Assembly (NCBI GenBank): GCA_020152595.1
Contig: JAIGNY010004516.1
Location: forward strand, 309,501-373,500
Direction of reading: 5' to 3'
DNA length: 64,000 bases
DNA from: Chiridota heheva
Lineage: Eukaryota; Echinodermata; Holothuroidea; Apodida; Chiridotidae
Shown here piece after piece: positions 23,046-64,000 of this stretch (positions are counted from its first letter, which is position 1; the number at the start of each line of letters is the position of its first letter). The notes beneath the pieces are model-generated. The model worked only from the letters and a program-made list of their open reading frames with translations. It did not search any database and was not told the origin of the DNA. A program made the position numbers and the translations under genes.

Positions 23046-23264
23046 TATGGCTTATGACTTTCTAACTTCACATTTAGAGTTTTGTTATGATATTGACATT
23101 TCTGACATGAATAGCAATCAAAAAGTTTGTCTTGCCATGAATAAAGAAGCAAATAAAAGTATCCCCACTGCTAAAGAATGTTAAATTATGGGTTTGGGAA
23201 ATATAAACAATAAGACAATGTAGGGTAGAAGATGACATGATGATAAAGTAGCTGAAGGAATTAG

Positions 23265-23790: not shown

Positions 23791-23984
23791 GTGATTTGTA
23801 TTGTTTCCAATGTCTAGTTTGTCATATATTAAGCAATATTGTTTCGCATAATTTTGCTTTAATGTTATTGTACATTTTTCATGCTGCTTGACTTTGTTTG
23901 ACACACATATTTCTGTAAATTGGAAGTCGTATTGCAATCGAAGATGTAGTTCTGGGAATGTGTAGGGGCTGGGGAGGGTACAGG

Positions 23985-25350: not shown

Positions 25351-25839
25351 TTTCTTTGTTATCAAATTGATAAAACTAAAAGAGGTGTCGTAGTTATGAA
25401 GACTGCTAGGTTTTACATGTTTTCTGAGTCACTGGATGAGGTAACCTTGAGCTTTTTTTTTGCTCTAAAATATCTGGGAAAACTCTAAAGATATTTCGAA
25501 GCTTGTAGCTAGTACAAATGAAAATATAAGTGCATCTTTCAAAGCTCAAGTAATTTGAAATCATCTGCCCCTGGTACCCAATTTCTTTATATACTTGCCC
25601 ATTTTTTATACTAGCTTGGAATAGTCGAGCGTACTGTCCTTCTGACAGTTCTGATTAGTTATGAGTTTGAGAATTACAGGGGTGGGGGAGGGGGTGGGGT
25701 AAAAGGCTAATTTACCATTTCTCCCTCACTGTTGGCTACGTTACTGATTTAGAAAATTGTTTTAAATGACATTTACTTTCAACGTCCAAACAGGGGGAAG
25801 GGAGGGGGGTGAGGGACCCAGATACTTAATATAGTAATC
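25351..25839. other. Intron sequence
   Basis: AT-rich with G-rich runs near 25680 and 25800; no element delimited. Confidence 0.4.
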
Positions 25840-26522
25840 AATAGCTCTGTGACCTTGACCTTTTGACTCCAGTTTACAGGACACAAATTCATGATTCATG
25901 TATCATGGTACAATATAGGGTTGGTATAGGTCTTGTGCTTTTTGAGTTTTAAATGGTGAAAAATGCATAAAAACATTTATTTGACTTTTGTACCATGACC
26001 TTTAACCTTTTGACCCCCAATTATTTTAATTTTTGTTAGTGTTAAACGCTACCCACCTATGCAATTTGTAAAGATACCAAGTAATTCCTTCAAAAGATAC
26101 AGCCATCACCAAAAACTTGTTTCATTTGACCTTTGACCTTTTGACTCCAGAGTTTACGGACGCAAGTTTATGTACCACAGTACAAACATAGGATTGGTAT
26201 AGGTCTTGCACTATCGGAATTTTTAGTGGCACAAAAATGTAAATTAGTACATAATTAATCCCTTAAAATCACATAATTGACCTGTGGCCTTCTGATCCTT
26301 GACCCTAATCAATCACTGAAACAACTTTTGAAATTTTTGACATTTATCGTACCCTACTGTATGACATCATGCTCACGTCATACTTACCATTCCATAACTA
26401 TAGGGGAAAGTGGTCAATAGCTCTGTGACCTTTGACCCCAGAGTCTACAGGATACAAATTCATGTACCAAGATATCATGGTACAACATAGGGTTGGTATA
26501 CATGTAGGTATTGTACTTTTTG
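25840..26522. repeat. TGACCTTTGACC-type dispersed repeat, left part
   Basis: Two to three tandem, diverged units of about 300 bp. Each has CTCTGTGACCTTTGACC-like starts, CATGGTACAACATAGGGTTG, ATACCAAGTAATTCCTTCAA and AGATACAGCCATCACCAAAA. The repeat is interrupted at 26522 by the minisatellite-core element and resumes at 29052. Confidence 0.8.
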
Positions 26523-33599: not shown

Positions 33600-34320
33600 A
33601 GCCTATGGGATGTCATGTGGGGCATGGGGTGGGATGCCATGTGGGACATGCGGTGGGATGCCATGTGGAACAGGGTGGAATACCATATAGGATATATGGT
33701 GGAATGCCATGAGGGACATAAGGTGGAATGCCATGGGATGGGATATCATGTGGGATATGGGATGTCATGTGGGACATGGTGTGAGATGCCATGTGGGACA
33801 TGGGTGGGATGCCATGTGTGACATTGGGTGGGATGCCATGTGGGACATGGGGTGGGATGCCATGTGGGACATGGGGTGGGATGCCATGTGGGACTTTGGG
33901 TGGGATGCCATGTGGGACATGGGTGGGATGCCATGTGGGACATGGAGTGGGATGTCATGTGGGACATGGGGTGGGATGCCATGTGGGAAATGGGGTGGGA
34001 TGCCATGTGGGACATGGGGTGGGTTGCCATGTGGGACATGGGGTGGAATGCCATGTGGGACATGGGGTGGGATGCTATGTGGGACATGGGGTGGGATGCC
34101 ATGTGGGACATGGGGTGGGATGCCATATGGGATATGTGGGAGGGATGCCATGTGGGACATGGGGTGGGATGCCATGTGGGACATGGGGTGGGATGCCATG
34201 TGGGACATGGAGTGGGATGCCATGTGAGACATGGGTGGGATGCCTTGTAGGACATGGGGTGGGATGCCATATGGGACATTGGGTGGGATGCCATGTGGGA
34301 CATTGGGTGGGATGCCACGA
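33600..34320. repeat. 24-bp minisatellite, about 30 copies
   Basis: The unit GGGATGCCATGTGGGACATG+GGGT is highly regular from about 33780 to 34320. As a multiple of three it leaves all six frames open (MWDMGWDA, CGTWGGMP, HVGHGVGC on plus; SHPMSHMA, PHGIPPHV, TWHPTPCP on minus). These frames of up to 234 codons are not genes. Confidence 0.95.
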
Positions 34321-34587
34321 GTAACACAGCATGACATAGGTTGGATTGCCATGTGTGACATAAAGTAGGATGTCATGGAGACATTGGGAGGGATACCATG
34401 TGAAACATATAAGGATACCATGTGGAACATAAGGTGGGATGCTTTGTGGAACATCAGGTGGGAAGCCACTGATGCGTGACATACAGTGGGATGCCATATG
34501 GGACACAGGGAGGGATGCCATGTGGGACATAGAGAGAGGTATCATGTAATACATATGGTTGGATTAATTTGGGACATACATGTAGGA

Positions 34588-41020: not shown

Positions 41021-41251
41021 TTGCGCACACGTGTTTAGTCAATCCGATATGATGCATTAATGTTGCAAAGTTGATGGTTGTTGACAGATCTTTATCCGAC
41101 TGTGTATTAGTATACCACTATGGGCATGAATAATTTGTGAAGGTGGTATTTTTTATGAAGATATAAGTATTTTATACAACCTAGAGAACATTATATTAAA
41201 CTTATCTGAACAAAAGTGTATTGTGCAAACTGTGTGATGTATGAATGGATT

Positions 41252-41405
41252 GACATGCTAGAAGTTTCTGGTTTAATCCTCAGTGGCCAGGTTTTCAATC
41301 ACCAGTGCTTCATAACTGGTTTATCAAATGACCATGAACATCTTTATATGAACTTTAGCTGTTGAGAAAGGGATGTAAAATACCCATTCTCCCACCTACC
41401 TACTG
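41252..41405 (+). mobile_element. SINE family 2, truncated copy
   Basis: Matches the body and tail of 59935-60118: TTCTGGTTTAATCCTCAGTG, ACCAGTGCTTCATAACTGG, CATGAACATC, TGTTGAGAAAGGGATGTAAA. The A box is lost. Confidence 0.65.
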
Positions 41406-41631: not shown

Positions 41632-41705
41632 GAAGTCACCTCTGGTCTAATGGTCATAGCATCAGCTTGGCAAGCTAGAAGTTCAATTCCTGTTGGTTTT
41701 CTTTA
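41632..41705 (+). mobile_element. SINE family 2, head fragment
   Basis: CTCTGGTCTAATGGTCATAG, AGCTTGGCAAGCTAGAAG and AGTTCAATTCC match the tRNA-like head of 59935-60118. It abuts the left inverted arm. Confidence 0.6.
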
Positions 41706-42018
41706 GGCCAAGAATTTTAGCTTTAGCCTTGAAATAGCTGGTAACAAGCTGATTTTTTAAGAATAGGTCCAGAATCATGTGTAAAATAACATACTAAAAG
41801 TCCCTGGAAATCATCCTCTTTAAGCTTTTCCGTAAATCCAAGATTGCCCAAAATGGTTGCCATTTTCATTTTTTTATCATAAATTTTGCATCCAGAAAGG
41901 TTATAAGTAAGAAATATGTGTCTAAACATATGTATTTTAAGGACATGTAATCCACTGGAAGCATCACTAAGAGGTTATAACATCTAAAAATGACCAAAAC
42001 CAAGATGGCATCCAAAGA
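41706..42018 (+). repeat. Inverted arm, left (pairs with 54960-55268)
   Basis: About 310 bp, roughly 80% identical by eye to the reverse complement of 54960-55268. Landmarks: GGCCAAGAATTTTAG, AATAGCTGGTAACAAGCTGA, TTTGCATCCAGAAAGGT, GCATCACTAAGAxGTTATAA and CCAAGATGGC. 42120-42175 repeats the last part (AAGAGGTTACAAAACC, CCAAGATGGCATCCAAA). Confidence 0.85.
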
Positions 42019-42295
42019 GCTGCCATTTTTTATTTTCATGATATCATTTCAAACCTGACAAGTTCACAATACAAAAAAATGTCCAACAATATGGTCTAAT
42101 GAATAAAGATTCCAATACAAAAATGCTAAGAGGTTACAAAACCATAAGATACCAAAATGACCAAGATGGCATCCAAAATTCTGCCAATCGGGTCATAAAC
42201 TTTAGCATATGATCATCACAAAATCCCCTCATACACCTTTGTACACATCAAATATGTTTGTAACTATTATCTCATAATCTGTTAATTTACTTTAA

Positions 42296-42434
42296 GTTAT
42301 ACCTTACCTTCCATGCTATAATTATGCAATCTGGTCACATGACCTGATTCTAACGCACTTCTAACCGACCCTAAAAAACGTAGTAACCAGCCAAGCCCTG
42401 ACCTCCATAATACCTCTGTACCACCTCACTCTTT
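42296..42434 (+). repeat. DIRS-like left inverted terminal repeat
   Basis: Contains CTTACCTTCCATGCTATAAT, GCAATCTGGTCACATGACCT and CCATAATACCTCTGTACCAC. Only a handful of differences from the reverse complement of 50023-50158, which suggests a recent insertion. Confidence 0.9.
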
Positions 42435-44554
42435 TTTAGCGCGTTGTTGGCACTAACATCGCTGAAAACTGGTCATTTTTATTTTTTTTAATAATTAACC
42501 TTTTTAACTCTTTTCTCTTCAGCAGCATCTACCTGGAGGGTTTTTACGCTGCCCTTTCTCATCTGGCTCGCCTTTTCAAGTCTTCCGAGATAAGGGTGAG
42601 GTAGCCATGGGTCCGAGATTTCTTGGCCGACCTACACGACTTTACCCGTGTAGCCTACACTTAGGATAGCGGGTTTTGTCTCCATTCGTACAAAGCAGTG
42701 GCTAGTTCGAGAGCGTCCTACTCGTGGCGAGTGTTTTAGGTCCTAGAGCACCAGGTGTGCCTGTCTGGGGACCTCTTACCCGGGGTTTAGGTTTTCCACC
42801 CTTTGCCGCCCCACCACGAGGAACCTAGCGTTATAACTTTGCGTTAGGATTTCTCTGTACAAGTTCTCGTATGCATTAGGCCAATTTCTTTTTCTGATTT
42901 TGGCGCATGCGCATTAGTCGGCGTCTCCGTCGGGTGTTCGGGGAGTCGGCTCCGAGCTTCTCCAAGGAGCTACAGTTGTTACAAGAGAGCTTATTTTTGT
43001 ATTAACGTTACCAGCATATGAATATTTTCATTTTTCTTACATAAATTAAAGACAAAGTTTTTAATTTTCAAGCTTGTTTTTTGGGGGTTGGGAGAGACCG
43101 GATGGGGGTCTTTCCGATGTACCGTTTAAAGGATATTTAGTCTCTTCTTTTTATCTTTACAGACTCCGAGTACTCAGTAGTTTGTGTTTTCCATGCTACC
43201 CCAGCGCTTGTAAAGATTTTACGTTGGATGCGTTTTCTCGGGTTTATAAAAAAAATTCAGATAGAAAAAATTTTCTGTTAAATTATTTTTTGATGTGCTA
43301 CTTTGCTTTGCCTCGTCTCTCTTTTAACGTGATCGTACGCATTGATATATGTTCTTCTCTTTTCAGTAATGCTGTATTTGTATGTACGCATTGATATATG
43401 TTTTTCTCTTTTCAGTAATGCTGTATTTGTATGTACGCATTGATATATGTTCTTCTCTTTTCAGAAATGTTGAGAATGATTAACTCAGTGGCGTTGCACC
43501 TTAGGTTGTGTCCCTAGTGAACCACCTGCCAAAAACAGGTTGTGCTCCTAGTGGACCACCTAGAGTTAAGTAGGTTTAGAGAGAAAGAAGAGAAGATCTT
43601 AGTCCTCTTCGTGGCGTTGCGCCACTTAGAGTTGAAGAACTAAGAGAGAGAGAGAGAGAGAGAGATAAGCTATCCTCTTCGTGGCGTTGCGCCACCTAGA
43701 GTCGAAAAGGTAAGAGAGATAAGCTCTGACTAACTCAGTGGCGTTGCACCTTAGGTTGTGTCCCTAGTGAACCACCTGTCAAAAACAGGTTGTGCTCCTA
43801 GTGGACCACCTAGACTTAAGTAAGTTCAGAGAGAAAAAAGAGAAGATCTTAGTCCTCTTCATGGCGTTGCGCCACTTAGAGTTGAAGAGCTAAGAGAGAG
43901 AGATAAGCTCTGACTAACTCAGTGGCGTTGCGCCTTAGGTTGTGTGCCTAGTGAACCACCTGCCAAAAACAGGTTGTGCTCCTAGTGGACCACCTAGAGT
44001 TAAGTAAGTTCAGAGAGAAAGAAGATAACCTCTTAGGGGCGTTGCGCTAAGTTTAAAAGATAATTAAGAGCTATACGATTCCGCAGCCCGTTGTTACGGG
44101 GCGAACAGTTCCATTGGGCCGGTTCCATACGGTTCCACGGCCCGTTGTGGACGGGCGGGCCAGTTCCATTGGGCCGGTTCCATACGGTTCCGCGGCCTGT
44201 TGTTATGGGGTGAACGGTTCCATTGGGCGGTTCCATACGGTTCCGCGGCCCGTTGTTACGGGCGGACGGTTCCATTGGGCGGTTTCATCGGTTTCGCGGC
44301 CCGTGCTTACTGGTCCGTTTATAACAGGATAACGCATACACGTCACGGCTAATCGATCATACGCCCACTAGCTACCAAGCTACCTGGTCAGGTGACAGGT
44401 GACATTCTTGGCAAGAAGTATAGCATTGAGACAGCTATTTTTCTTCTTGGTCCCGTAGCCATTAGCTACGTAGTTCCACGGCTCGTGTGAACGCAATTAA
44501 GATGTCTACGTTGAACGTTACACTTCCGTATTTATTTTCACCAGTATCATAGAC
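42435..44554 (+). other. DIRS-like 5' leader with tandem modules
   Basis: 43330-43470 holds three copies of about 51 bp, each with TTCTCTTTTCAG, a splice-acceptor-like word. 43480-44040 holds three modules (starts near 43487, 43734, 43914) with CAGTGGCGTTGCxCCTTAGG, GAACCACCTGCCAAAAACAG and the hairpin GTGGCGTTGCGCCAC. 44085-44335 repeats GGTTCCATACGGTTCCxCGG and CCCGTTGTTACGGG. The open frames here have no recognisable domain. Confidence 0.6.
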
Positions 44555-44803
44555 ATGGAGGACAGGTCCCTGAGTGTCGATGTTTTACTCACCCAGGATG
44601 TCCCGCGATGCATAGCGTGCAAACGCTTCTTTAAATTTCGCTCAGGTGACATCCATCTCATGTGTTACGCGTGTAGATTATGCTGCGAGTCAAATCCTTG
44701 TACTCTTTGCAGCGATTGGGACCTAGCGGCGTGGTCGGAGCACAGACTCCACGCGACTGGTACTTTCAAGAGCGGCGGAGAAAGTGGAGAAGCGACGGTC
44801 TGA
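44555..44803 (+). pseudogene. DIRS-like ORF1 (gag-like) N-terminal cysteine-rich fragment, copy 1
   Basis: Starts MEDRSLSV and contains CIACKRFF, a GDIH step, CYACRLCCE and CTLCSDW with a following W, a C-x2-C/H/C-x2-C spacing. It then runs into sequence biased to Arg, Pro and Gly and stops. DIRS ORF1 products often start with a Cys/His-rich segment of this kind, so an ORF1 remnant is plausible but not proven. About 83 codons is far below a full ORF1. A diverged second copy lies about 850 bp downstream. Confidence 0.4.
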
Positions 44804-45401
44804 TAGGCCCTCTTCGTCTTCCCCCGCCGCCACCGCCACCCAGGCCTAAAGCCAGGAGGCGGGGCCGCCCTTACTCTCAGCGGGCGCCTCTTGAAAGACG
44901 TACACTGCACGGTTATTCCAAAAGTATAGCATTGAGACAGCTATTTTTCTTCTTGGTCACGTAGCCAAGGCTACGGCAGTTCCTGGTTCCATATGGTTCC
45001 ACGGCCCATGTTTACGGGTCCGTGCGGTTCCACGGTCCGTGTTTACAGGTCGTCGGTTCCATTGGGCGGTTCGCGGCCCGTATTTACGGGTCCATACGGT
45101 TCCATCACGATTCCACGGTCGGCGTTTACGGGTCCTTTCGGTTCCATTGGGCGGCTCCAGTGGCGGAACTTATTTTTAACGGGATAAGCGACACTATGCG
45201 GTTAACCCGTTATATGCCCACTAGCTACTACGCTAGGTGGTCAGGTGACAGATGACTTTCTTTACAAGAAGTATAGCATTACGACAGCTATTTCCTTTTT
45301 GGTCCCGTAGCCATTAGCTATGCAGTTCCACGACTCGTGCGAGCGCCAATTAAGATTGTCTCGTTGAACATTACAGTTCGGTAATTATTTTCACCAGTAT
45401 C

Positions 45402-45671
45402 ATGGACATGGAGGACAGGTCTCCGGTGTCGATGCTCTACACCCATGATGTCGGCGTGGCGTGCTTACGCTTCTTTGATTTACGCTCGGTCACATCCATC
45501 TCACGCGTTACGGCGTGCAGATTATGCTGCGAGTCCATTCTTTGTACTCTTTGCAGCGATTGGGTTCAGCGGCGTGGTCGGAGCATGGACTCCACCGCGA
45601 CCGGTATTTCAGGTGCGACCGAGAGAGTGCGGCTCCGGTGTTCGGATGCGTGCGGCTCCGTAGTTTTGTAG
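45402..45671 (+). pseudogene. DIRS-like ORF1 N-terminal cysteine-rich fragment, copy 2
   Basis: Starts MDMEDRSP and contains ACLRFFDLRS, CRLCCES and CTLCSDW, aligned with copy 1 but lacking the first Cys pair. Shorter traces of the same module (ATGGAGGACAGG-like, GCGTGCAAACGCTTCT) recur near 45905, 46250 and 46795. The 5' gag region appears to have been amplified in tandem and to be decaying. Confidence 0.4.
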
Positions 45672-48600
45672 CGGGATATCGTACACGTCACGATTTACCT
45701 GGATATGCACCCACTAGCTACGAGCTATGTGGCCAGGTGACAAGTGATAATCTTCACAAGAAGTATAGCACCGTGAGAGCTATTCTCTTCATGGTTCCGT
45801 AGCCATTAGCTACGCGGTTCCCACGATCATGTGAACACCATTAATCCCGATTATCCGCGTTGAGCGTTACAGTTTCGCAATTACTTTCACCAGTATCATA
45901 GGCACGGAGGACAGGCCTCTGAGCATCAGTGCGTTACGCACCTAAGAGGTCCCGCTATGCATAGCGTGCAAACGCTTCTCTAGACCCGTGCGGGCCTGTG
46001 CGACTTCAGAGTTTTTGCAGCGGGATAACGCGTACACTGTCGATGAACCCGAATTGAGTCCGCTAGCTAGGAAGCTACTTGGTCAGGGGATAGGTGACAA
46101 TCTTCACGAGAAGTATAGTATCACGAGAGCTATTTTCTTCCCGTCTCTGTAGCCATTAGCTACGCTGTTCCACGGCCGTGTGAGCTGCCTCTGTAGGATT
46201 TTCTGTGTTGAACGTTACAGTTCCGCGATGTTTTGCACCTATATCATCGACATGAAGGGCAGGTCTCTAGTGTCGGTGCGTTACGTGCCTTGAATGTCCT
46301 GCGATGCGTCGCATGTAAATGCTTCTTAGGTTGCGCTTTGGTGTTATCGACATGTTCAAACCCGTGTACACCGCTGTGGTCCTCGGTTCCGCGATGGGAC
46401 CGGTAGGTCCACTAGAGGCGGCGCCCTACAGGGTCATACGTGAGTTAGTACCCTTTTTTTATGGCTAGTTGTAGAGCCATTGGATTTACTTGCACAGGTC
46501 CATTAGGGTGCGTACGGCTCCGGTGATCGGTTCCATGCGGCCCACGGCTTGTTTCCACGGCCCGTAAGGGTCCGGGCTCCGTGCGGGGCATGGGATGACC
46601 GAGTGCGAGGGCTGCATAATTCTGCAGCAAGGTAGCATTACAACGACGTCACCTGATAGTATACCCTTTAGCTTTTTAGCTACATGGTTGGGGATAGTAA
46701 CAATCTTAGGAGATCTCCACGTCGGGTGAGCTGACTTGGTGAGTTTTTGGCGTTGAGCGTCTCGGTTCCGCATAGTTTTCACCAGTTTCTTGGACACTAG
46801 GGCGAGTCCCGTTTGTCGATGCGTCACGCTCCCAGGATGCGTTGCGTGTTAGCGCTGCTCGGGTTTCGAGGCCTAAGCGCTTGGGTGATAGAAATTCCTT
46901 CTTTCACGGAAGGCATACCATCACGAGCTATTCTCTCCGTGTTACGTAGTTTCACGACCCGTTTAAACTACTCTGAATATGGTTCTTGCGTCGAACGAGA
47001 CCTTGGCTCACATTCTACAGATATTAAGCGGTTTCGTACCACGTCGATAAACCCGGGTAACGGAACCGGGATAATGCGACCGTTAGCGCGTATTGCAGTG
47101 TTCGCTGGTCGTTTTCTTGCTGGGGCGCTTTTAGCGTTCGACGGCAGTCCCCCCAGCGTAGCCGCCCGGCTCGCGGCTCCGTAGAGTGATTATATACAAA
47201 GCGGAGTTAACGGCCACCACCAGCAGCGGCTGTGTGGTAGAGGACCAGTAGCCATGAACTACAGAGTTCGCGGCCGTTTCTCTTACCGGGACACGTACTG
47301 AGTCACGCACGGTAGTCCCCTCTTCCCCAGGTAGCTACGGTTTCGTAGCTCCGTGATGAAACAAACTAAGTTTCGACTCGTATAGCTTGCGTAGCACTTG
47401 AACTCCTCCGTATTTCTTACAGCCCCAGTATATTTTAGCTATTCTCAACGGAACAGCGTACTGAGTACATCTTCCCTACGCGTAGCCACTTACCGGTGGC
47501 CCGTGGTGAATAGAAGTATACTGAGATAGCGACTCACGTTACAGATGTTGTGCGTTAACGCTATCGTGAGACCTAGGCGGTTCTTTTGTACTGATAGCTA
47601 CTACGTTCGGGACACGTACCAGTACCAGTTGTCCCCCTCGTGTAGCCCACGAGCTTTTTGCTCCGTGGTGCACAGAGACAAAGTTGGCGGATGACTAGTG
47701 GTTTTACTTGTCATGCTGACGCCTTTGTAGACCCATAACGGATCCATAATACTTAACGGGTTGCATACTTTTATGCGGCGTAAGTCCCCTGTAGCCACGC
47801 GCTTCTCAGCTCCGTGGTGCAGGGTGTTTAACGGAATTAACGGTCCGTGTAGTATACACAGGGCGTCAACTCTTTCGTGATTTCTACCCCAGTGCTGGGG
47901 TTTATGACTCATACGGTTGGCGTAGACGTTACACCCCCTTGTCAATATTAACTCCATGAAGGATATTTTTTCTTGACAATAGGTGGCCTTTTGATAGACA
48001 ACCTCAGGTTTGGGGTAGCTATTCCCAACAACGGCGCGTATGGTTCATTTCATACTTTAACAACTTCTTAATGCTGTTTCCATGCGGTTTTACGGCCTGT
48101 CACTTAACTGCCCGTACAGACATACGGTATTAGTTTTCTCCACACCCGTAGCCGTAGGCTCCGCGGTTTCAAGGTTGTTACTATAGGTAGTACGTTAACA
48201 CTTTTTCCAGTCAACTTCTTAGACAAGTTTCGCTGTTGATAGGTGTGGCCTGGAGCTACGCGGTTCCGCAACTGCTAGTTTTCAGACCCTGCTTGGGTGC
48301 CGTCAACTATGTTCTACGGCTCCGCGGTCTTACGACCCATACCGTCTCACAGCTACATAGCCTTACACGGTTGGCAGCCCTTCTTGTATACGTTTTATAT
48401 TAACGGCCTGCCTTTTTATTTCGCTAGCCTTTGATTTTTGGTCAGTAGGTTTAAACAACCTTTGCTCAGGGTCGGCAGTCTTTTCTGGACTGCAGGTGGT
48501 GTCGTTCCGTACCTCAGCTTTACACGTTCAGTCGGTGGCCACCCCCTTTGGTGGTGGTTGGAGTGCTCCCACCTGGTGTAAGGAACGAGGTTTTCACCCC

Positions 48601-49863
48601 TCAGATTTCACCGTTGGTGCCGACGGAGGCTTCTTGATCGAGGTAGGGGCACTTTTCTTTGTGACCCCTTATGACGGAAACTTGGACGGGTACTAAACCT
48701 TTTTTGACAGGCAGAATGCCGGGGCTTTTCGTTCACCTATTTACCGCTAGTGCTGAGCGAGGCTTTTCAGTTTCCCGCCGTTTTTGCACCACTGTTGTGG
48801 TCTCTTTTTCGGACAGAGCGTGCGGACTCCAAGAGTTCTGGAATCGTTCCTCGTCTCGGCGCAGGGACGAACTTTGGCTGCTCAAGACCTTGCAGGCTTC
48901 ACGTCACGAGCCTCGGGTCAGTGACAATTTTTGTCTCTTTCCGGGCTCCGGCGGACTGCATCTCCGTCCCGGGCGCCGTTTGATGGTGTGGCCTTAGCCC
49001 GCCTTTCCTCGGCGTAGCATGGCCTTTCTGAGAGGTTGTTCACCCCCTCCCCGTTGTGGGAGGTGGGCCCCTCTCCAGCTTGGTTCAGTCATGAGCTCTG
49101 GGATAACTTGCAGCTATCCACCGGGGTTTTTCCAGTGGGGTCTCACGGTCTCTGACTCGCGATCACTGGAAAGTTACATGGCGATCTCTTCGTAGTGTGT
49201 CATGTGACATTTTCCTCCGATAGATCGTCCAGTGACTTTCTTTTAAAGTAGTCTGCACTGTTCATAGAACGGCCGCGGTATGCACTCGGGTTGGGCATCA
49301 CCTCTTTCACGGGATCTCGTGCTGCGTGCGTGAAAACGCTTTTCAGCGGTTTTTCTCTTGTTTTTGGTCTGACTCACTTTTCGGCGTTCGTGTTCCCCGC
49401 TAGCTTTTTTGCTCTTACGTGATTCTGGCGCTAACGAATTTTTCCCTTGTCTGGGATTTCTTCAATTCGTTTTTGTTGGTACACGCCGTTCCCGATCGTA
49501 GTTTTCCTCGCGGTTCCGTCCGTGGACGAATCCGGTGTGGTTTAATGGCGTTTTTGTGGACACTTTGCTGTAATTGTGTCCCAACACTCTTCCGGTTGGC
49601 TTGTTTTTCTGGGCTTTTTGCTCAGGTTCGTTCGATGTTTGCCTCCGTTATTGTCAGCGAATGGTGCTTTGTTCGGTTTGACTGTACCTCGACGTGGTTT
49701 ACTATGTTTTAGTTCTTCCCACTCTTGAGGTCTTTTATCCCTCAGAGGAGAAGGAATTTCGTCCTTTAAACGGGATTCGATTCGTGTGAGTTTTCGTACC
49801 AGCCATTTAAAAAAAAAAAAAAATGTGCTTCGGTCTGTACTCCCTTCCTTCCCCTCCTCGGTT
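45672..49863 (+). other. DIRS-like interior, GC-rich, hairpin-rich, no intact ORF
   Basis: Repeated modules with GTAGCCATTAGCTAC-type hairpins, AGAAGTATAGCAxxxxGAGA, GTTCCACGGCCCGT and ACGTTAAC words. The frames at 46813, 47601 (minus), 48671 and 49419 (97-123 codons) show no RT, RNase H or recombinase motif. In a full DIRS element this position would hold RT/RNase H and the tyrosine recombinase. Confidence 0.6.
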
Positions 49864-49981
49864 GCAATCTGATTGCATAATTATAGCATGGAAGGTAAGG
49901 GATAACTTGAAGAAAATTTACCCCGCTAAGCGTATAGCGTAGCGGGGATATTTACGAGAGTTATACTTACCTTCCATGCAT
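49864..49981 (-). repeat. DIRS-like internal complementary region
   Basis: Left half (CTGATTGCATAATTATAGCA, TGGAAGGTAAGGGATAACTT) complements the left end of the element. Right half (TTTACCCCGCTAAG, GATATTTACGAGAGTTATAC, TTACCTTCCATGC) complements the right end. The two halves meet at AAATTT, the word shared by both ends. Confidence 0.88.
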
Positions 49982-50022
49982 CCCGCCCGCCTCCCCTCTC
50001 GTTCAGGCCTCGGTGGAATGTT

Positions 50023-50195
50023 GAGTGAGGTGGCACAGAGGTATTATGGAGGTCAGGGCTTGGCTGGTTACTACGTTTTTTAGGGTCGGTTTAAAGTGCG
50101 TTAGAATCAGGTCATGTGACCAGATTGCATAATTATAGCATGGAAGGTAAGTATAACTCTCGTAAATATCCCCGCTATGCTTAGCGGGGTAAATT
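50023..50195 (-). repeat. DIRS-like right inverted terminal repeat and terminal hairpin
   Basis: Reverse complement of the left repeat to about 50158, then a right-end extension with CCCCGCTATGCTTAGCGGGG (50170-50189), a perfect hairpin with an 8-bp stem, followed by TAAATTT. The extension is found again only in the internal region, as the DIRS model predicts. Confidence 0.88.
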
Positions 50196-50540
50196 TATAG
50201 AAACTGTTACTCACCATACCTAAATGAAGTGATTTTTTGAAAAGTGAAACTTTTGCAATGGATAGAAGGAGATTTTATTTGTGACATGTCAGATTTTTTT
50301 GTCCCTATGGACTTTTCCTTTTGTTCAAAGATTGGAAGATATGAATCGGTCTCAGAACATTCACAATAAGAATTTTCACCATTTCATTTCCACTTGCAAT
50401 TTAATTGAAAACCATGATTTGAAATGTTCCTGTGTAATTCATTAAAACATTGAGGAACTAATTCATGAAGAGCTTGCTATTCTTCCGTCTTTATCATCAT
50501 GTGCAGTATCTTCAACAGTTATGTCCAGTGATGTTGGCAC
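50196..50540. other. Sequence between the DIRS-like right end and the CXC-type pseudogene
   Basis: Probably 3' flank of the minus-strand gene, and part of the older element that the DIRS-like copy split. Nothing recognised. Confidence 0.4.
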
Positions 50541-50544
50541 ATCA

Positions 50545-53500
50545 TCATTGACATCTAGCTGTGTGGGTGCATTGATGTTGCAGTTTGACCTGTGCATTTG
50601 CTGCACATGGAGGTGCATGAAGTCCAATTTTTTTGCAACTACATGTCATGTTGACACAACCTTCAGCTTTACCCCACATGATACCATGTTGAGCAATGAG
50701 TCTGGGGCAACAGGTATGTTTGTTTCTACTGGTGCAAGAGTTCCATCCCGTCATCGCCATTCCCAGTCATGTTGGAGGCAGGATTTCCCATCCATTGTTG
50801 AACTGTGAGGTAAAGTGCAGTAGGAATGTTGCCTTGCTGCAGCATGAGTTGGGGGTAAGCTTGCCAGCTGGAATGATGAACTAAGGGGACTCCTACCAAT
50901 CTCCTTTTATATGTTATCAGTATTCATCCAGAGATTTAAAGTTGCTCGCTCCATACAACTTGAGAATGAAATTTCTCCTGCTTTATTCACCTCTGCAAGT
51001 GTACATTCAGCCTTTTTGAATGTGTCCAACTGAACATAGTCCTATTTTTGTGCACAAGATTAAATGCCATGCATTTGCTCTGCCGATAGATGGCAGAAAC
51101 AGTATCACATCCTGTTATAGCATGTATAACCATCAAGTGCTTGGCTGTCACAGTCTTTGATTGCCTGTTGAATTTCATGAATGTTGTACAAAGGTTGTCA
51201 GGTTGCTGTGGCATAAAGTACACATTTGTAGAAGTAGTTGCCCGACCCACTAGCATGACCCATAAGTCAGCATCTGTTCCTACAACAACGACTGGCAGCT
51301 CTGCTGACTCTGCTACAGCAAGGGCTGTGGACACAGTTAGTGAATCTGCACCTGCATCTGCCTGCTTAACGCGTATGCCAACCATTTGCATCTTTTCCCA
51401 CAGATTTTGAATCAAGTCTTTTCTTGTTAATACTGTTTGTCAAGAATGCCGATTGAGGAGTGGTAGTTGGTGTCCTATTATTATTAAATATGACCTCAAT
51501 GGATGTACACTTCTGAGCTCTCCGCCTCTGCTCACCTACCTTTGTCGAAGTGGTCCTGATATAACCATCAAAAACCACTGTTGATTTAATACCATAATGC
51601 TTCAGGATGTACGAAATATATGACTGACATACATCACCATAAGTTGACAGCTGATGCCAAATGAATGTTTAAAGTAGGTGCCCACCATCTGTGAAAAGGT
51701 ACTGTAAGTCTCTGGTACGTTGGACTGCTGTATAACAAATGATTTCAAAGGACACCAAGAGAACTGTTTGCAGGCTTCCGCATTACATCATCACGGAAGA
51801 GGTGGTTGAGGAGCAAGCTCGTAAGCCAAGAACGCCTCCATCTCAGAACTTTGGTTAAGAACACGCATGATTCTGTAGAATAACAAACTTTGGTTGATGT
51901 CTGAGTTCTGTCCTCTTATTTTGACAGTCTTGTTTTTGGTACTGATTGTATCCACCTTGTCATTGCGACGCAGTGTAACTTCTGTCAATTTCTTGCCATC
52001 CATTTGTGAGGCAGCTGCCAGACCAATATTTACCGCATCATTGCAGTTGACTAATGCATCTGCAACAATTCTAGTTGGTATGGAAACTAGGTGATCTGGT
52101 TTGTATCCAGCAAATGGTGAATGTGCCTGCAGCCACTGTGTAAAAGTCACACGATGTCTGTTGTCCCTTAACTGGGTGCTAGAATGGAGGTCTCTGTGTT
52201 GCTCAGATATGGCAGTGTGCACCCCAGTAAACCGCTCCAGTGCCTGACAGACAGGAACGCAGCGAGGTAATGCATTGACCCAATTTGTTAATGTACTATC
52301 TGTGATACCCTGGCCATGCGTCATTCCTTGAGATATTTTCAGCATTCGCATTAAGAACTGCCCGGTGGTCTGGTCTGAGATGGTTTCACTCCAGAATTTA
52401 TCAAGGCGACGGATAGTGTAAGTATCCCTTCCCTGTAAAGAGTTTGTAATCATCAATTGACACTGTCTCTCTACTCTAAAGCTTCTATTTGTTGTTGATA
52501 CAGTCTTTGCATAATGAAGGTGATCTGCAGCATGGAAATGTGGAATCATTTTCTCAGGCAGTAGGAGTAAAGTTTTCGTTTACCCGTCCTTTCAGCATGA
52601 ATGAAGTGTTGCATGAGTGCCGCTTGCCAGATATGCTGCACGCAGAGTTTTCCAGTCCTGGTCTAACTTGCTGTTTTGTCAAGTAGTATTGATGTGAGTT
52701 GGTGAAACACTTTGATATACTCCTTCTCAGCTACTTCAGTGGCATTGTGTGTTGGTTTAATAAGAAGGCCTTCGTAAAGGTTCTCTAAACATTCTTTATC
52801 AATGTTGCCCAAGGAACCAGGTGTATACCATTAAAACACAGATGAGGGCTGCTGATGTAAGAACGTGAGCACAGAGTGCACGAGCAAATAGTAAACATGT
52901 GTACAACGGATCCTTTTGCGTACACCGTCTCTCAAAGCTCCACTATTCCACTTCCTGACATAATCTGCCCAATGCTGCCGAAATAAGACAGGAGATGGAA
53001 TCCACCAAGGTGCACAACGACTTTGTGTGGATCTTCTACAGTCTTTGGTTTGTTCTGTAAAGCGCAGAGAACCTTGGGATTTTGCGCTACATAATCACCG
53101 AGGAAGTAAGAAGTAAGTAAGCTACAATCTCTGCAGCTTTAATGTATAAAGGTTGGTCAAATGTAACTGGGCATACCCGCAAGTCATGTTTTTCACACTG
53201 TTTTGAGCAAAGCATAAAGCAGTGTATAGTGCTTAAATTGGTTGGATTCAGATTGATGAAGGGAAGGGTTATGATTCTGCTTCTCTCGTACTGATCATTC
53301 GTCATAGCAATTCTCATAAGGCCACTCCATGAGGGGCATAGGCATATATCTAGAATGCAGCCAGTGCCAGCCACACACCCACAGGGTGTCCAGGGCAATT
53401 GCTGATCCTAGGCATGATGGTTCCTGGCTAGGAATCTAGAGGGGCTCCATTGTAACAGCCTGTAGACCTGGAACAGCTGGCTTGCTATACGTCTTTATGG

Positions 53501-54791
53501 GAATTTGTTTAAAGGCACCAGTGATTTCAGCAGACTGCAGCTTTACTTCACAAATGATAGTTGAGCTATTCATAATACTAGATGGTGTTTCACAAGCTAT
53601 GCCACCCATACTATGAAAAGTGTTGTGTCCTGTAACTGTAGCTACATTGAAGTCAGCGTTATCAAACATGAAGTGTGTGAAACCATTCAGGTCATATGAC
53701 AACTTACCACATGACATAAAGGCTTGCTCAAAGCGCTGCACCTCTTTGTAGTTATCTGCAAAGCAGTGAAGCAAATGCTGCTAAGAATGTCAATCAGTTC
53801 ACGGGAGGCATAATTGTGGTGTATACACACAGCTATTCTAAGCAATAGTGGTGAGATAAAGGATATGGGTCTGCTTGGCATTATGGCATGCACTATGGCT
53901 GTGCATTTCCTATCTGAAACAGTACTGCTTTAACCCTTACCTTCCACCAATTTGTGTGTAGGAAACGCTTAAGGGAAGTGGGAATCAATGTGTCTCCATT
54001 TTCTGTTCCTTCCAATGTTGTGTACTCATCACAGTCACACACTGCCAATCTGATATTGTTCATCTCTGGAATGATAGAAGCAGCCATATCTATTAGCAGT
54101 TTACTTTGATTATTCACATCAATCCCCTTATCAGTAATCCACTTTCCATGGAGGATCCTGTGTGCTGAGTCACGGAAACTTACGGTACTTGGTTTTCCAG
54201 TAATACTGGTTACAACTATATCATCACCGTAATGTTCCTTCAGTTAGGCTAGGCCTTGAATTGTTTCACTGAGTATCCTTCAGGTCCATCCAATAACGTC
54301 CTTATGTATTCTAAAAGCTCCTGCACTGAGTATAAACACTAACATTATTACTTAGAAACTCGCAGTGCTTCTTAAATGCTTCCTCCCACAAATTCTCATT
54401 TGGCCTTTCCTTTCTCTGTTTAAGAAATAATTAGGCACCTTTTTGATGATATTTAACCTCCACTGCTACAAGGTCATTTGACTATTGTACATATTCTGCA
54501 ACAACATTGTCCCACTGGTCCTGTCTTTCTTTAGCACATTTTAATACCATTGCTTGAAAGTCCAAGGTCTCCACACTGCTTTACTCTCCTTCTTTTATAT
54601 GGTTTCTTAATGTCTAGTTTGACAGGTTCCGAACAAAACATACAATATTTGTTTATGTCAAATGTCCGAGAAATACTTGACCACAGTTGAGGTACTTCTT
54701 CTTTTTGTTCAAGATTGAAAGACCTTTTTTCAGCCACTATGGAAATTTTGTGTGTGTATTTTTTTGCCACAATGAATTGTTTTCCTGTCAA
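50545..54791 (-). pseudogene. Decayed gene of a metazoan PIN/FEN-like plus CXC-type family
   Basis: Read on the minus strand, collinear pieces of one protein appear in order. N-terminus (54791-54531) has CMFCSEPV and KKPYKRRR; then ETLDFQAMVLKCAKERQD and VAVEVKYHQ (about 54570-54440); NWWKVRVKA (53900s); HFMFDNADFNVATVTGHNTF (about 53670); LPFINLNPTN and CPVTFDQPLYIKA (53280-53120); SIGQIMSGSGI (about 52970); RRLDKFWSE and GMTHGQGITDS (52430-52290); QADAGADS, VVVVGTDADLWVML and HAITGCDTVSAI (51360-51090); and a C-terminal cysteine-rich CSCKKIGLH segment (about 50640). The family is known to me as large uncharacterised proteins in cnidarians, molluscs and fishes. The acidic TDAD/GCD motifs resemble a PIN/FEN nuclease fold; function is not established. 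Several frameshifts and stops make this copy inactive. Confidence 0.75.
53035..53115 (+). mobile_element. Short SINE/LINE tail-like insertion in the pseudogene
   Basis: TGTAAAGCGCAGAGAACCTT and TTTTGCGCTACATAATCACC resemble the 3' tails of invertebrate SINE/LINEs that end with a small hairpin and short repeat (here GAAGTAA). It breaks the alignment of the minus-strand protein family. Confidence 0.45.
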
Positions 54792-54959
54792 GGTTATATG
54801 ATTATAGGTTTGGGGTAATGATTTGTGGTAGTGTTATGATTTATGATTGGATGGTTCGGGACCATTTTAACTAAATAATTTATTGGATTCCTTCTGCCAA
54901 GTTAGATTCCGCCAAGTTAGATTACATTCCGCAGTTATAGTAAAAATATATCAAATTGC

Positions 54960-55268
54960 GGCCATTTTAGACGCCATCTTGGTTTTAATTTGGGATGTTA
55001 TAACATCTTAGTGATGCTTTCAATGGATTACTTGTCCCTTAAAACATATGTTCAGACACTTATTTTTTCTTTATCACCTTTCTGGATGCAAAGTTACAAT
55101 ACAAATTTAAAATGGCTGCCATTTTGAATTTTCGGGAAAGTTCAAGGAGGATTTTGGGGACTTTTAGAATGTTATTCTACACAAAATTTAGGACCTATTT
55201 GGAAAAAATCAGCTTGTTACCAGCTATTTTAGTTTTGGGCCTTTTGAGATCTAAAATTCTTGGCCTAT
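54960..55268 (-). repeat. Inverted arm, right (pairs with 41706-42018)
   Basis: Reverse complement of the left arm: GCCATCTTGGTTTTAATTTG, GTTATAACATCTTAGTGATG, CAGCTTGTTACCAGCTATTT and CTAAAATTCTTGGCC. The frame at 55112-55339 is a by-product. Confidence 0.85.
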
Positions 55269-55512
55269 TAGGATTGGTTACATTTTTACTAGTTTTACTT
55301 TTTTGTGTTTATTATTATTGTTATTATTTTCAACCTTGATTAGGTCTTTTTCTTTCTATGCCATTTGTATAACTTATTCTGTTGTTTCATTTATTTCACT
55401 TATATTTTTGAATTTGTACTGTTTTTTTATTGCTCAGGGCCCTGTGTAAGATCAGTCCTCGGACTGAACAGGCCACCGTGAAAAGAACTGAAATAAATAA
55501 ATAAATAATATA
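55269..55512 (+). mobile_element. LINE 3'-tail-like fragment with (AAATA)n
   Basis: T-rich, then GGGCCCTGTGTAAGATCAGT, CCTCGGACTGAACAGGCCAC and GAACTGAAATAAATAAATAA, the typical 3' end of CR1/L2/RTE-like LINEs with a short repeat tail. No coding part. Confidence 0.55.
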
Positions 55513-55560
55513 AACCTTCGCTGTTGATAAAGGGATGTAAAGTACCCAACCTACCTATGT
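55513..55560 (+). mobile_element. SINE family 2 tail fragment
   Basis: GCTGTTGATAAAGGGATGTA and AAGTACCCAACCTACCTATG match the 3' end of 59935-60118. It ends about 25 bp before exon E. Confidence 0.55.
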
Positions 55561-55584: not shown

Positions 55585-55737
55585 ACTTAGTGGATGTTCC
55601 CCATTCATGGGGGACGACGATCGGCAGACATTGATGAATGTCAAAGAAGGCCAGTGGGATTTTGAGGAGGATATTTGGGACGAAATTTCGGGAGACGCCA
55701 AAGATTTTATTTCAAATTTACTAGAGATTGATGTTAT
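55585..55737 (+). CDS. Kinase exon E: helices G and H of the C-lobe
   Basis: This 153-nt exon has acceptor TTTATACAG and donor GTGAGT. It encodes LSGCSPFMGDDDRQTL, a stretch with WDFEEDIWDEIS, and DAKDFISNLLEID, which closely follow the MLCK/twitchin C-lobe pattern (SPFMGD..., W.F.., AKDFI..LL). It joins exon D in frame across a 16.5-kb intron that carries the nested transposon cluster. It leaves with two bases (AT) over, so the next exon must begin in phase 2. Confidence 0.92.
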
Positions 55738-59142: not shown

Positions 59143-59934
59143 TCATAAAAACCTTCTGCTTGTCACATGCTATCCTTTGAAAAATTCTATATCAGCTACT
59201 AAACTGTATCATTTTCACCTATTTTGCACACTTAATTAACCGTCTCATCCCTATGACACCATAATGATACCTCATGCATAGGTACCACCAGGGAGTTCTT
59301 AGCAGCTCCCTGGTACCATCATCGTGGAGATAATGTGCCTCGTTTAAATTAAGGCCCATCTCCACCATCTATGCCGAAGCCATCGTTGAAATTATTTCTT
59401 CTAGTGTACTTATATATATTTTCTTCCCTAGTGGTGCCACCCAAAAGTGCACTCTTTTGGACTTGATTTTTGGTCCATACTAGATGCGCCTTAAGCCATT
59501 CCATATGCTGCAGCGTTTAATTGAATCATCAGATGTACATGCTCCTTGTTATGAAGACCCCCATGGTCTAGGTTCATATTATCAGCCTGGCAAGCTAGAC
59601 TCTGTTAAGGGCCTATTGTATCAACAACATTATCATTTAATTAATGTTATAGTGAATGACATAATGCACAAAATGGCATTCCATACGCTCATAAATAATG
59701 AAATAACGCCCTACTTATAGGGGTATAATATCTGGAAAATGGGGCTTCTCAATATACTGGAAAAGAGAAGCAAAGTATATTGCCCAAAGGTAGTGAATAA
59801 AAATTGTTATTTAGGGTTAAAAGAACCCTAATTATTGCAGTTCACATGCCCATTGATGACACTATAAGCTATTAAAAGTAATAGATATTTTAAGGTATTT
59901 CCTCATTCCAATCTATATGCTAAATAGATTCTTT
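59143..59934. other. Non-coding stretch
   Basis: 59545-59610 resembles a decayed head of SINE family 2 (GACCCCCATGGTCTAGGTTC, GGCAAGCTAGACTCTGTTA). 59651-59700 repeats 37258-37310. The rest is unique. Confidence 0.4.
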
Positions 59935-60118
59935 GACCTCCGTGGTCTAGCAGTCATATCATTAGCTTGGCAAGCTAGAGGTCCCTGGTTTGAATCCTGG
60001 TGGGCCTTCATTCACCAGTGTTTCACAAAGTTCTGGTTTATGAAATGGCTGTGAACATCATCTATATAATCTTATCTGTTGAGAAAGGGATGTAACATAC
60101 CTAATCTACATACCTGCC
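59935..60118 (+). mobile_element. SINE family 2, best copy
   Basis: tRNA-like head with A box TGGTCTAGCAG (59943-59953) and B box GGTTTGAATCC (59987-59997), then a body ending TGTTGAGAAAGGGATGTAAC. Partial copies lie at 41252, 41632 and 55513. Distinct from the SINE at 38531. Confidence 0.75.
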
Positions 60119-60484: not shown

Positions 60485-63400
60485 ATATTTACTTTAAGTT
60501 ATATTTTACCTTCCATGCTATAGATATGCAATCTGGTCCAACGACCTGATTCTAATGCACTTCTAATTGACCTTAAAAGCGTAGTTACCAACCAGCCCAG
60601 CCCCAACCCCCATAATACCTCTAACATCCCTCATTTCTTTTCAGCGTATTGCTGTGACAACATCGATGGAACTGGCCGAAAAATTTCTGTTAACTTTCGC
60701 CTTTTCTGACAATTTTCTTCCTTGCAGATCCTACCATGCAGGTTTTTACGTTGTTTGACATTTTCTTCTAGCCTTTTCAAGTCACCTGATTTAAGATGGG
60801 GTGGCCATAGGACCGAGAGATATTCAGTTTGACTCACAGGACTTTCCCTATTAAGCTTACACTTAAGTTCGAGTGTTTTTGCTTCCATCCTTACGAAACG
60901 GGTGGCTAGAACGAGAGATTCCCACTCTTGCGGCAGGTGTTATTAGTCCCTAGAGCACCTGGTGTGCTAGTTTAGAGGACCCCATTCCCTTGGGTTGATG
61001 TGTTTTTCACCCCAGGCCCCTGCCTTACCACGAGTATAGCCTATAGCGTTATACTGTGCATTGGTATTAACTTGTTAGGATGTCTTCAGTACAGTTCTCA
61101 TATGCATTAGGCCAACTTCTTGTTTCGATGTTGGCGCATGCACATGAGATTGATGTCACCACAGGGTGAGTGAGAAGTCGGCTTTAGCCAGCTTCAAGGA
61201 GCTACAGTTATTACAAGAGAGCCTATATTTTATTTTTGCGTTAACATACACATTGGGAGTTCACTTTTCTTACCTATAATTAAGACAGTTTTTCATTTAT
61301 TATCTCGGGGTGCTGGGGGGACTCTGAAGGGGTCTCCCTTGCACCTCCTTTCTAAAGGAATTCACCTTTTCTTTTTATCTCCACAGACACCAAATTCACA
61401 GAGGTTTGTGATTTCTACGCTACCCCTGCACATATAAAGAATTTACATTTTGTGCATTTTCTCAGGTTTTAAAAATTGTCAGATTTAAGTCTTATCTGAT
61501 TCATTTTTCTGGTGTACTGAATTGCTGTGGCTTGCCTCATACCATGTTTGACGTCTTCCACAGTTCTGTCTCACCCGGCTAAGGTGTTTACTTATGCCAT
61601 GACCCACGGCTCGGTGATACTGAGCCGCAGAGGTCTGAGGCAGTAGTCTACTTTGTTAACTTAAACTGACTTACCCCCCAAGGCCTCCGACTCGACGCTA
61701 TTGAGTCAGCAGGAACACTGGCAGAGGTCTGTCGGAAGTAAGTTATTTCTGAAACTATATTGATTAGCTACATGTAAGTTGCGTCTTAACAACATAACTT
61801 AGAATAATCCACATAATACTAGTGCCCACATCTCGACGATACTGAGTCGGTGGGGTGCAAGTAGTGATGAGTGACTTGTTATAACACCGCTGTGGACCTC
61901 CGTTTCGTGTAGGGACTGGTAGGGCCATAAGGGGCGGCATCTAAGCTAAAAGTAGTTTTACGGCTCGCTGTAGAGCCATTAGATTACTTCCACGGGTCCA
62001 CATGGCTCCGATGCACAGGTCCATATGCCTCCACAGCATGGGCCCATGGCTCCATACGGGTCTGTGACACGGCTTTACGGCTCCATACGGGTCCATTGCA
62101 CGGTTCCGTACATGTCCATACGGCTCCGTATTCAATCTTATGGGTCCACACGGCTCCGTATCCAAGCTTTACAGGTCCATACGGCTCAGGTGAATGGCTC
62201 CGTACAGGTCCTTATGGCCCCACGGCTCCACACAGGTCTGTGATAAACGGCTTGTATAGCTTATGCAGCTCGTGAACTCAACCGTATATCCATACGGCTC
62301 CATTGTACTTTTTGCTAGTCCAACAGGGACGTGTACTTAGTAGGGCAATAGTCCCCCACATGTAGTCACTAGCTTCGTGGCTCCGTGGTGAATAGAAATA
62401 TACTGAGGTAACGACTCGTATAACTTACACAGTATGTTAATGCTATTGTAGATCCAGGCGGTTCACTATTACTGATAGCTATTCCGATAGGGACGCGAAC
62501 CGAATATGGCAGTAGCCCCCCTCACGTAGCCACTAGCTTTGTAGCTCCGTGGTGAACAGAGGTAAACTGGGTAGAAGGCTCGTAGAGCATACGTAGTATG
62601 TTGATGCCATCGTAGATCCATGAGGTTCTATGATGCTTAACAGGGACGTGTACTGAGTACATCGGTATTCCTCCCACATAGCCACTAGCTCCATGGCTAT
62701 GTGGTGAATCGAATTTAACTGAGTTAACGACTCGTATAGTATACACAATACGTTAACACAATTGTGAATTCAACCCTAGTGATTGGGTTAATGGCTCGTA
62801 TGGTATGCATAGTTTTAACTCCCTTTTAAAACTAACCTAAGTTAGTTTTTTGGCATTGGTGGCCGCTTGATAGACAGTGCCATAATCGGAGTAGCTATTA
62901 AAGACAGCGGCACGTATAGTTTACGCTATACGTTAATGCCTTCATTAAGCAGTTTCACGTGGCTTGCGGCTCCATGGCTTGTTACTTAACTACCTGTACA
63001 GCGTACGGTATTAGTTTTCTCCACATCCGTAGCCATCAGTCCCAAGGTTGTTACAACCCTCTGAAGTATAGCATACGCTGTACGTTAATTAATGCCATAT
63101 CTAATCAACTTAACACAAGTTAAGATGCTGATATAAGTAACCAGCAGCAATGCAGTTCCACAATTACAACAGCCTGTTCCAAGTTGACTGCGCCTATAGT
63201 ATACGCAGGACGTTAACATCTTTTTACAATAACTTACTAAGGTTATGACCTATGTCTAGCATACGCGGTACGTTAACTAGACACTAAAACAAGTAAACGA
63301 AGTCTATAACTGGAGAAACTATAGCCACCGGCTACACAGTTCTACGGTTCTAACAACCGGTCCAACATTGACGGCCCGTATAGTATACGCTGCACGTTAA

Positions 63401-64000
63401 CTCTATATCGGAACGGTTGTAGCTTCTTTACGTTAACGACCCGTAAAGTATACGATATATGTTGAAGAGATATTAAAATACCTTAACTAAGTTCATAATT
63501 GGACAGGGCATAGCCATCGGCCCCACGCTTTATTGTAACGGCCCGTATTGCTTCCAGTGCGCGTTATAACACCATTTTGATTAACCTTTCCAGGCAAATG
63601 GACTTTAATTAGTTAACGGCCCGTCCTGCCTATGGTGCTAGTTATCTCCAGGGCCATAGCCAATGGCTTACAGCTCTGCAGTCTTGCAAGCCATAACCGT
63701 CTTATGGCTCAAAGCCTTACGTGGTTATAACAGCCCATTTAGTATAAGGCTTACGCTAACGACATGCCTTTTAACTTGTTAACCAGGATTAATAGTGCCA
63801 GTCAGACCCACAATGTTGTGTTGTCTGTCGAGAATGAAGCAGGAAGCACTAAAGGAGAGGACAGTTTCCGTCCTTCCCTTACTTTTCACTTCCTGGAGTA
63901 AATCCATGGTAAGATGTTTCCTACCTACATGGATGGACTCCTTAATATCCAGGCTTCTGTCTTGGGTCATACAGGCTGTGGAGGAGAGGCTGCCTCCTCC
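60485..64000 (+). mobile_element. DIRS-like element, second diverged copy, runs off the window
   Basis: Begins TTTACTTTAAGTTATATTTT, then ACCTTCCATGCTATAGATAT and CCATAATACCTCTAAC, a diverged match to the left inverted repeat of 42285-50195. The leader follows the first copy too (CTAGAGCACCTGGTGTGCTA against CTAGAGCACCAGGTGTGCCT). 61975-62300 is a field of CCATACGGCTCC/CACGGGTCCA repeats and 62330-63700 repeats GTAGCCACTAGCT and GTATAGTATACGC with ACGTTAAC. No RT or recombinase is visible; the minus frame at 63779-63970 is unassigned. The right end is outside the window. Confidence 0.7.

Follow-up and report, generated by a model that had tools for sequence, protein, structure and literature searches.

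The 64-kb window (the whole stretch of DNA analysed here) contains a long broken gene between two inverted arms, interrupted by a second repeat-bounded segment, and the question is whether these parts form one mobile element and, if so, of which type. The sequence-only reading had proposed an undescribed transposon with terminal inverted repeats (TIRs), encoding a PIN/FEN plus CXC-type protein and split by a DIRS-like insertion. With a probability of roughly two in three (about 0.68), we regard 41704–55267 as a single copy, old and dead, of an autonomous cut-and-paste transposon, most likely of AcademX type, which adjoins a host exon and was later split by a second mobile element of 7.9 kb.

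The inverted arms proved to be real. Pairwise alignment and blastn place the left TIR of the outer transposon at 41704–42036 (plus strand, starting TAGGCCAAGAATTTTAG) and the right one at 54943–55267 (minus strand), with 41704–42036 aligned to 55267–54943. Within the window, blastn gave 76% identity over 323 columns (41704–42016 versus 55267–54966, E about 2.5e-60), and the alignment score was 271 versus a maximum of 30 among 200 random pairs drawn from the window. The outermost 17 bp are identical, and each arm breaks off sharply, the left at 41704 and the right at 55267. The left subterminal part (42037–42284) includes a second copy (42126–42186) of the arm stretch 41967–42025; apart from this internal 62-column repeat, blastn found no third arm copy in the 64-kb window at E ≤ 1e-3. 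ATGGC-type motifs are common to both ends and run on into the left subterminal part: of 17 such octamers in the window, 8 fall within the two ends, which together span 906 bp and where 0.24 were expected, the motif having been picked post hoc after inspection of the ends. The plan of a DNA transposon therefore holds as had been proposed, given inverted arms that enclose one long gene and end motifs that both sides share, and the arms are most likely the outer element's own ends rather than a stray dispersed repeat.

The outer unit is split by a younger element of about 7.9 kb (about 42285–50203) with inverted ends of 137 bp that are 97% identical (42295–42431 and 50023–50158). Without it, the outer unit measures about 5,645 bp, a figure uncertain by some bases, as are the exact ends of the insert, and the earlier description of a 7.9-kb insert within a unit of about 5.6 kb stands. 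The 6-bp repeat CTGTTA flanking 42285–50203 was tried as the insert's target duplication and rejected; four 6-bp matches occur among the breakpoints scanned, and the repeat is therefore no evidence for the insert ends. The "DIRS-like" label is unsupported, because no reverse transcriptase, RNase H or tyrosine recombinase was found in the insert's six frames, or in ten of its open frames. The only matches were to DUF6821 (six frames, E 0.66) and DUF4059 (ten open frames, E 0.13). As a control, the same reading picked up RNase_H (E 1e-4) and RVT_1 (E 0.027) in a decayed LINE at 20–26 kb, although neither match passed the Pfam cut-off. A DIRS element that has lost internal parts or decayed very far is still conceivable. 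The relative at 60 kb likewise showed no transposon domain in six frames; all that matched were AP5B1_middle (E 0.15) and RACo_C_ter (E 0.17).

The broken transposase gene lies on the minus strand at 50558–54818, where 18 pieces read by eye yield about 1,336 amino acids, with 14 frame changes and two stops within pieces. Between 50204 and 55000 the minus strand holds seven stop-free runs of at least 90 codons, the longest of 262, and the plus strand two. None of 500 dinucleotide shuffles reached a 262-codon run, and shuffles averaged 1.35 runs of at least 90 codons (maximum 6). This excess of open frames, and the presence of every motif that had been quoted for it, bear out the minus-strand pseudogene. 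Three minus-strand pieces contain candidate residues, proposed by eye, for a DDD/E triad: the first catalytic Asp may lie in FDNADFN...TFHSMGG (53439–53780; sole Pfam match DPOA2_OB, E 0.06), the second in the piece with CPVTFDQPLYIKAAEIV (53090–53305), and the last catalytic Glu in LGGFHLL...GSGIVEL (52935–53087). Among the gene pieces scanned, none exceeded a Pfam cut-off or matched NCBIfam at E ≤ 1, and no paralogue of the seven pieces was found in the window at E ≤ 0.1. AlphaFold2 models of two single open frames were useless (mean pLDDT 36.5 and 31.6).

The downstream part of the gene probably encodes an XPG/FEN-like nuclease region, as judged from motifs and from matches that are sub-threshold. 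The piece resembling the XPG/FEN N-terminal part (YISYILKHYGIKSTVVFDGY, 51435–51668, minus strand) matches Pfam XPG_N and Exo1, both weakly. XPG_N is the only Pfam model listed for 51366–51668; its E-value of 0.072 is below cut-off and no stronger than chance-like matches elsewhere (DPOA2_OB 0.06, DOT1 0.11, E7 0.15). The piece resembling the internal part (QADAGADS, VVGTDADLWVML, HAITGCDTVSAI; 50990–51436, minus strand) was assigned by motif order, and its sole Pfam match is DOT1 (E 0.11). When the two pieces were joined, the XPG_N match disappeared and DOT1 alone remained (E 0.022). The joined pieces match residues 55–97 of Exo1 at E 1.9–2.0 in three of the six PDB sequences listed, below two malate dehydrogenases (E 0.18 and 0.24) and SpaA (E 1.2). 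The acidic motifs follow the order FDG, ADAGAD, TDAD, GCDT, which we take to be that of FEN1. The region thus resembles the XPG/FEN/Exo1 nucleases in its weak XPG_N and Exo1 matches and in the like order of FDG, ADA, TDAD and GCD motifs; unlike them, it would be one domain at most of a far larger protein, and its matches stay below threshold. At the C-terminal end, a Cys-rich, CXC-like stretch was recognized by its cysteine pattern in two frames (50558–50748, minus strand); no CXC model matched it, and only Fibrillin_U_N did (E 0.02). Of the proposed PIN/FEN plus CXC protein, the PIN/FEN part is therefore plausible but sub-threshold, and the CXC part comes down to the cysteine pattern.

Relatives were also sought outside the window. 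Three of the seven main open frames, used as queries against viral contigs, gave 10, 4 and 3 peptide-pattern stretches and no relatives. The motif HAITGCDT occurs at three loci in genome contigs and at none in viral contigs, where the variant HAFxGCDT occurs at one locus. These four loci were rejected as relatives and judged to be chance, because the best tblastn match reached only E 0.016 over 17 residues; the open frame that holds it presumably encodes a nucleotide-sugar epimerase. Tblastn of one gene piece against plasmids and of another against phages gave no match.

The nuclease of AcademX transposons is of the XPG type, and AcademH and the Academ lineages were reportedly the subject of a study by Kojima in 2020. 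According to the accessible part of PMC10045372, Academ comprises a helicase-encoding lineage, AcademH, with target site duplications (TSDs) of 9–10 bp, and a nuclease-encoding lineage, AcademX, with TSDs of 3 or 4 bp. In bivalves, 100 curated Academ consensuses, accepted once their TIRs, TSDs and DDE/D profile hits had been checked, average 5,565 bp (PMC10294476, accessible part). The element at 41704–55267 has terminal inverted repeats, and its outer unit lies near the Academ length of 5.6 kb, which is a bivalve mean and not a defining feature. It resembles AcademX in its inverted ends, in a single large protein whose probable nuclease region accompanies a presumed DDD/E core, and in its length of about 5.6 kb; it differs in that a 3–4 bp TSD is not demonstrable and that this copy is dead and split, the two being set side by side by description. 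AcademH would belong to the same superfamily, but helicase and 9–10 bp TSDs characterize that lineage (PMC10045372, as far as its accessible text goes), whereas the pieces here have no helicase match in seven open frames, three joined pieces and two of the three minus-strand frames, which cover the decayed gene in part. The assignment to Academ rests on architecture, length and general background rather than on alignment, and the outer element is most likely a dead, ordinary transposon of Academ type. The suggestion of an "undescribed" element of "unassigned type" is probably wrong, because the nuclease-encoding AcademX is already in print (PMC10045372) and Academ elements of matching length have been described (PMC10294476), as the accessible parts of both indicate. 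Among the papers searched by word, none pairs the whole words Academ and XPG, and the accessible parts of PMC10799480, PMC5714489, PMC9783078 and PMC12730594 added nothing on an Academ nuclease.

In such an element, an RNase H-fold DDD/E core of the encoded protein would cut and join the element ends, the XPG/FEN-like domain may aid strand processing during excision or integration, and the Cys-rich domains could bind DNA. This is a single dead copy and otherwise ordinary; it ties a protein that lacks annotation (pieces scanned: no Pfam above cut-off, no NCBIfam) to a transposon whose ends are defined. Should this be confirmed, PIN/CXC-like animal genes of the same "uncharacterised" kind would be transposases, and one could then test what a flap-type nuclease does alongside a DDD/E transposase.

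It is quite unlikely that an unrelated dispersed repeat supplied both arms, its two copies having come to lie in opposite orientation around a pseudogene by chance. In the 64-kb window neither the arms nor the gene turned up a second time, no gene-linked pair beyond this one was seen, and a clear TSD is absent, as that explanation would have it; yet the arms stop sharply at the gene's two edges with the same 17 bp, neither recurs in 64 kb at E ≤ 1e-3, and the end motifs extend into the left subterminal part. A genuine TIR element of another known superfamily seems hardly more credible. KDZ proteins carry Cys-rich CxC zinc domains, and the C-terminus here is Cys-rich, but an XPG/FEN-like region is also present. 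Moreover, as far as the accessible parts of PMC10045372 and PMC10294476 go, no superfamily lineage but AcademX is both set apart by a nuclease and of fitting length.

A TIR transposon of an unnamed superfamily, with the PIN/FEN-like nuclease itself as the transposase, would be consistent with the pieces given having no Pfam match above cut-off and no NCBIfam match at E ≤ 1, and with the DDD/E triad having been proposed by eye only; we hold it to be unlikely. It is similarly improbable that the element represents an unnamed transposon group with a FEN/PIN-like nuclease acting directly in transposition and with a protein family that is, as we presume, scattered among animals. An unnamed superfamily is opposed by the published Academ lineage of DDD/E transposons that encode a nuclease and by the Academ-like length of the unit (PMC10045372 and PMC10294476, accessible parts), and we retain an AcademX-type element as the preferred reading.

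No target duplication above chance was found at the flanks of the outer element. The best, TTAGG (5 bp), requires unequal ends, and 236 of 2,000 random trials reached at least 5 bp; TTA, TTAG or TAGG are possible, also with unequal ends, and are not above chance. The left flank (about 41636–41703) looks like the head of a tRNA-type SINE, named by eye, and the right flank is another repeat. A tail of the same SINE-like repeat, recognized by comparison with another copy (about 59930–60118), lies at 55508. Rejoining the flanks by eye gave no intact SINE and hence no clean empty site, because about 57 bp are lacking and 240 bp with a terminal (AATA)n lie in between. ARAGORN found no tRNA gene in the window, and nothing reached Rfam's gathering scores. 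About 320 bp past the right arm lies a host gene exon (55585–55737, plus strand, splice sites read by eye) encoding part of a kinase domain of obscurin/twitchin/MLCK type. The nest immediately precedes this exon, and the outer element apparently occupies an intron of a muscle-type kinase gene.

The outer unit at 41704-55267, in which inverted arms enclose a broken minus-strand gene, is probably a member of AcademX, the nuclease lineage of the Academ transposons (probability about 0.68). Its plan fits that of the lineage, and the comparison is one of descriptions rather than of aligned Academ sequences. Academ is among the 20 DDD/E superfamilies counted by Repbase (PMC9587614).

The inverted arms are real. 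Pairwise alignment places the left arm at 41704-42036 and the right one at 55267-54943, and blastn finds their outer parts 76% identical over 323 columns (41704-42016 with 55267-54966; E about 2.5e-60). Their alignment scores 271, and 200 random pairs drawn from the window score 30 at most; this confirms the arms that the sequence-only reading had placed around the gene. Both arms have the same outermost 17 bases, TAGGCCAAGAATTTTAG, beyond which similarity ceases. Except for one internal repeat on the left side (62 columns), blastn at E ≤ 1e-3 found no third copy of the arms anywhere in the 64 kb. Counting complements, the window has 17 occurrences of the octamers AAGATGGC and AAAATGGC, four of them in 41704-42284 and another four in 54943-55267; 0.24 are expected for both ends combined, a figure that is descriptive and no test, as the motif was picked after inspecting the ends. 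These octamers may represent transposase binding sites close to both ends.

The broken gene occupies the right-hand part between the arms. Its minus-strand reading joins 18 pieces, changes frame 14 times and meets two stops within pieces; it uses 4,008 of 4,261 bases and yields about 1,336 residues. The pieces were selected by eye, with known relatives as a guide, and their exact borders are therefore not evidence. On the minus strand of 50204-55000, seven stretches of 90 codons or more are free of stops (the longest has 262 codons), compared with two on the plus strand. In 500 dinucleotide-preserving shuffles the length of 262 was never reached, and stretches of 90 or more codons averaged 1.35 (maximum 6). 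This excess, together with the recovery of all motifs quoted beforehand, bears out the gene.

AcademX nucleases are of the XPG type. An XPG/FEN-like domain is likely present in the encoded protein: minus-strand stretches within 50990-51668 carry the acidic motifs FDG, ADAGAD, TDAD and GCDT, in the succession known from FEN1, and XPG_N is the sole Pfam model listed for 51366-51668 (E 0.072). However, this match is below the cut-off, and when the two nuclease pieces were joined XPG_N dropped off the Pfam list and DOT1 stayed (E 0.022). Other gene pieces match unrelated models at similar strength (DPOA2_OB 0.06, DOT1 0.11, E7 0.15, Zn_ribbon_Nudix 0.18). In a PDB search, the joined pieces matched two malate dehydrogenases (E 0.18 and 0.24), then SpaA (1.2), then Exo1, which accounts for three of the six listed sequences (E 1.9-2.0, aligned at Exo1 residues 55-97). 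The proposed CXC-type terminus stands as a Cys-rich end, seen in two frames at 50558-50748, but without a CXC model match in Pfam, where Fibrillin_U_N was the sole match (E 0.02). By their position, FDNADFN, VTFDQPLY and GSGIVEL are candidates for the DDD/E residues; the joined stretch carrying them has no Pfam match. The seven main open frames gave nothing above Pfam cut-offs and no NCBIfam match at E ≤ 1, and the gene pieces and motifs tried found no relative in prokaryote, phage, plasmid and viral-contig collections.

The outer unit is split by an insert at about 42285-50203, a separate element with its own inverted ends (42295-42431 and 50023-50158). These are 97% identical, against 76% for the outer arms, and the insert is therefore the younger. 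Taking it out leaves about 5,645 bp for the outer unit, in agreement with the 5.6 kb proposed earlier; the mean length of 100 curated Academ consensuses from bivalves is 5,565 bp (PMC10294476). The insert had been called DIRS-like, a label that we dropped, because neither six-frame translation (sole match DUF6821, E 0.66) nor ten open frames (just DUF4059, E 0.13) contained reverse transcriptase, RNase H or tyrosine recombinase, while the same reading method detected sub-cut-off Pfam matches to RVT_1 (E 0.027) and RNase_H (E 1e-4) in a decayed plus-strand LINE at 20000-26000. It may still be an internally deleted or strongly decayed DIRS-like element. A diverged second copy starts at about 60487 and extends towards the window end (60487-64000), with blocks 71% identical over 1,023 columns and 69% over 809, and no transposon domain. 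In its first half, at 43335-46330, the insert contains nested tandem and dispersed repeats with units of 49 bp, 177 bp and the GGTTCCATACGGTTCC type.

The two lineages of Academ differ in their target duplications, which measure 9-10 bp in AcademH and 3-4 bp in AcademX, a difference tied to the encoded helicase and nuclease, respectively (PMC10045372). The longest duplication at the ends of the outer unit is 5 bp (TTAGG); it needs unequal ends, and 236 of 2,000 random trials also gave at least 5 bp. By eye, an apparent tRNA-type SINE head lies left of the left arm, and past the right arm, at 55508, the tail of that repeat follows. Judged against another copy at about 59930-60118, these flanks form no clean empty site: 240 bp with (AATA)n at their end separate the right arm from the tail, and some 57 bp are absent. 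Copies or fragments of what appears to be a single SINE family lie at 41240-41401, 41636-41703, 55508-55555, 59543-59618 and 59930-60118, and the two parts bordering the transposon do not rejoin cleanly.

About 320 bp past the right arm, a plus-strand exon at 55585-55737, flanked by ACAG and GTGAGT, encodes LSGCSPFMGDDDRQTLMNVKEGQWDFEEDIWDEISGDAKDFISNLLEIDVM, the final residue spanning the splice. It is of the obscurin/twitchin/MLCK kinase type, with obscurin (E 1e-13) and twitchin (2.3e-12) as top matches among the 60 listed of 93 PDB sequences. The nest of mobile elements seems to sit in an intron of this kinase gene. The ORF list has several mutually overlapping frames at 33690-34560, on either strand, in which peptides recur (e.g. 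GMPCGTW and ASHPMSHM), and these point to a tandem array.
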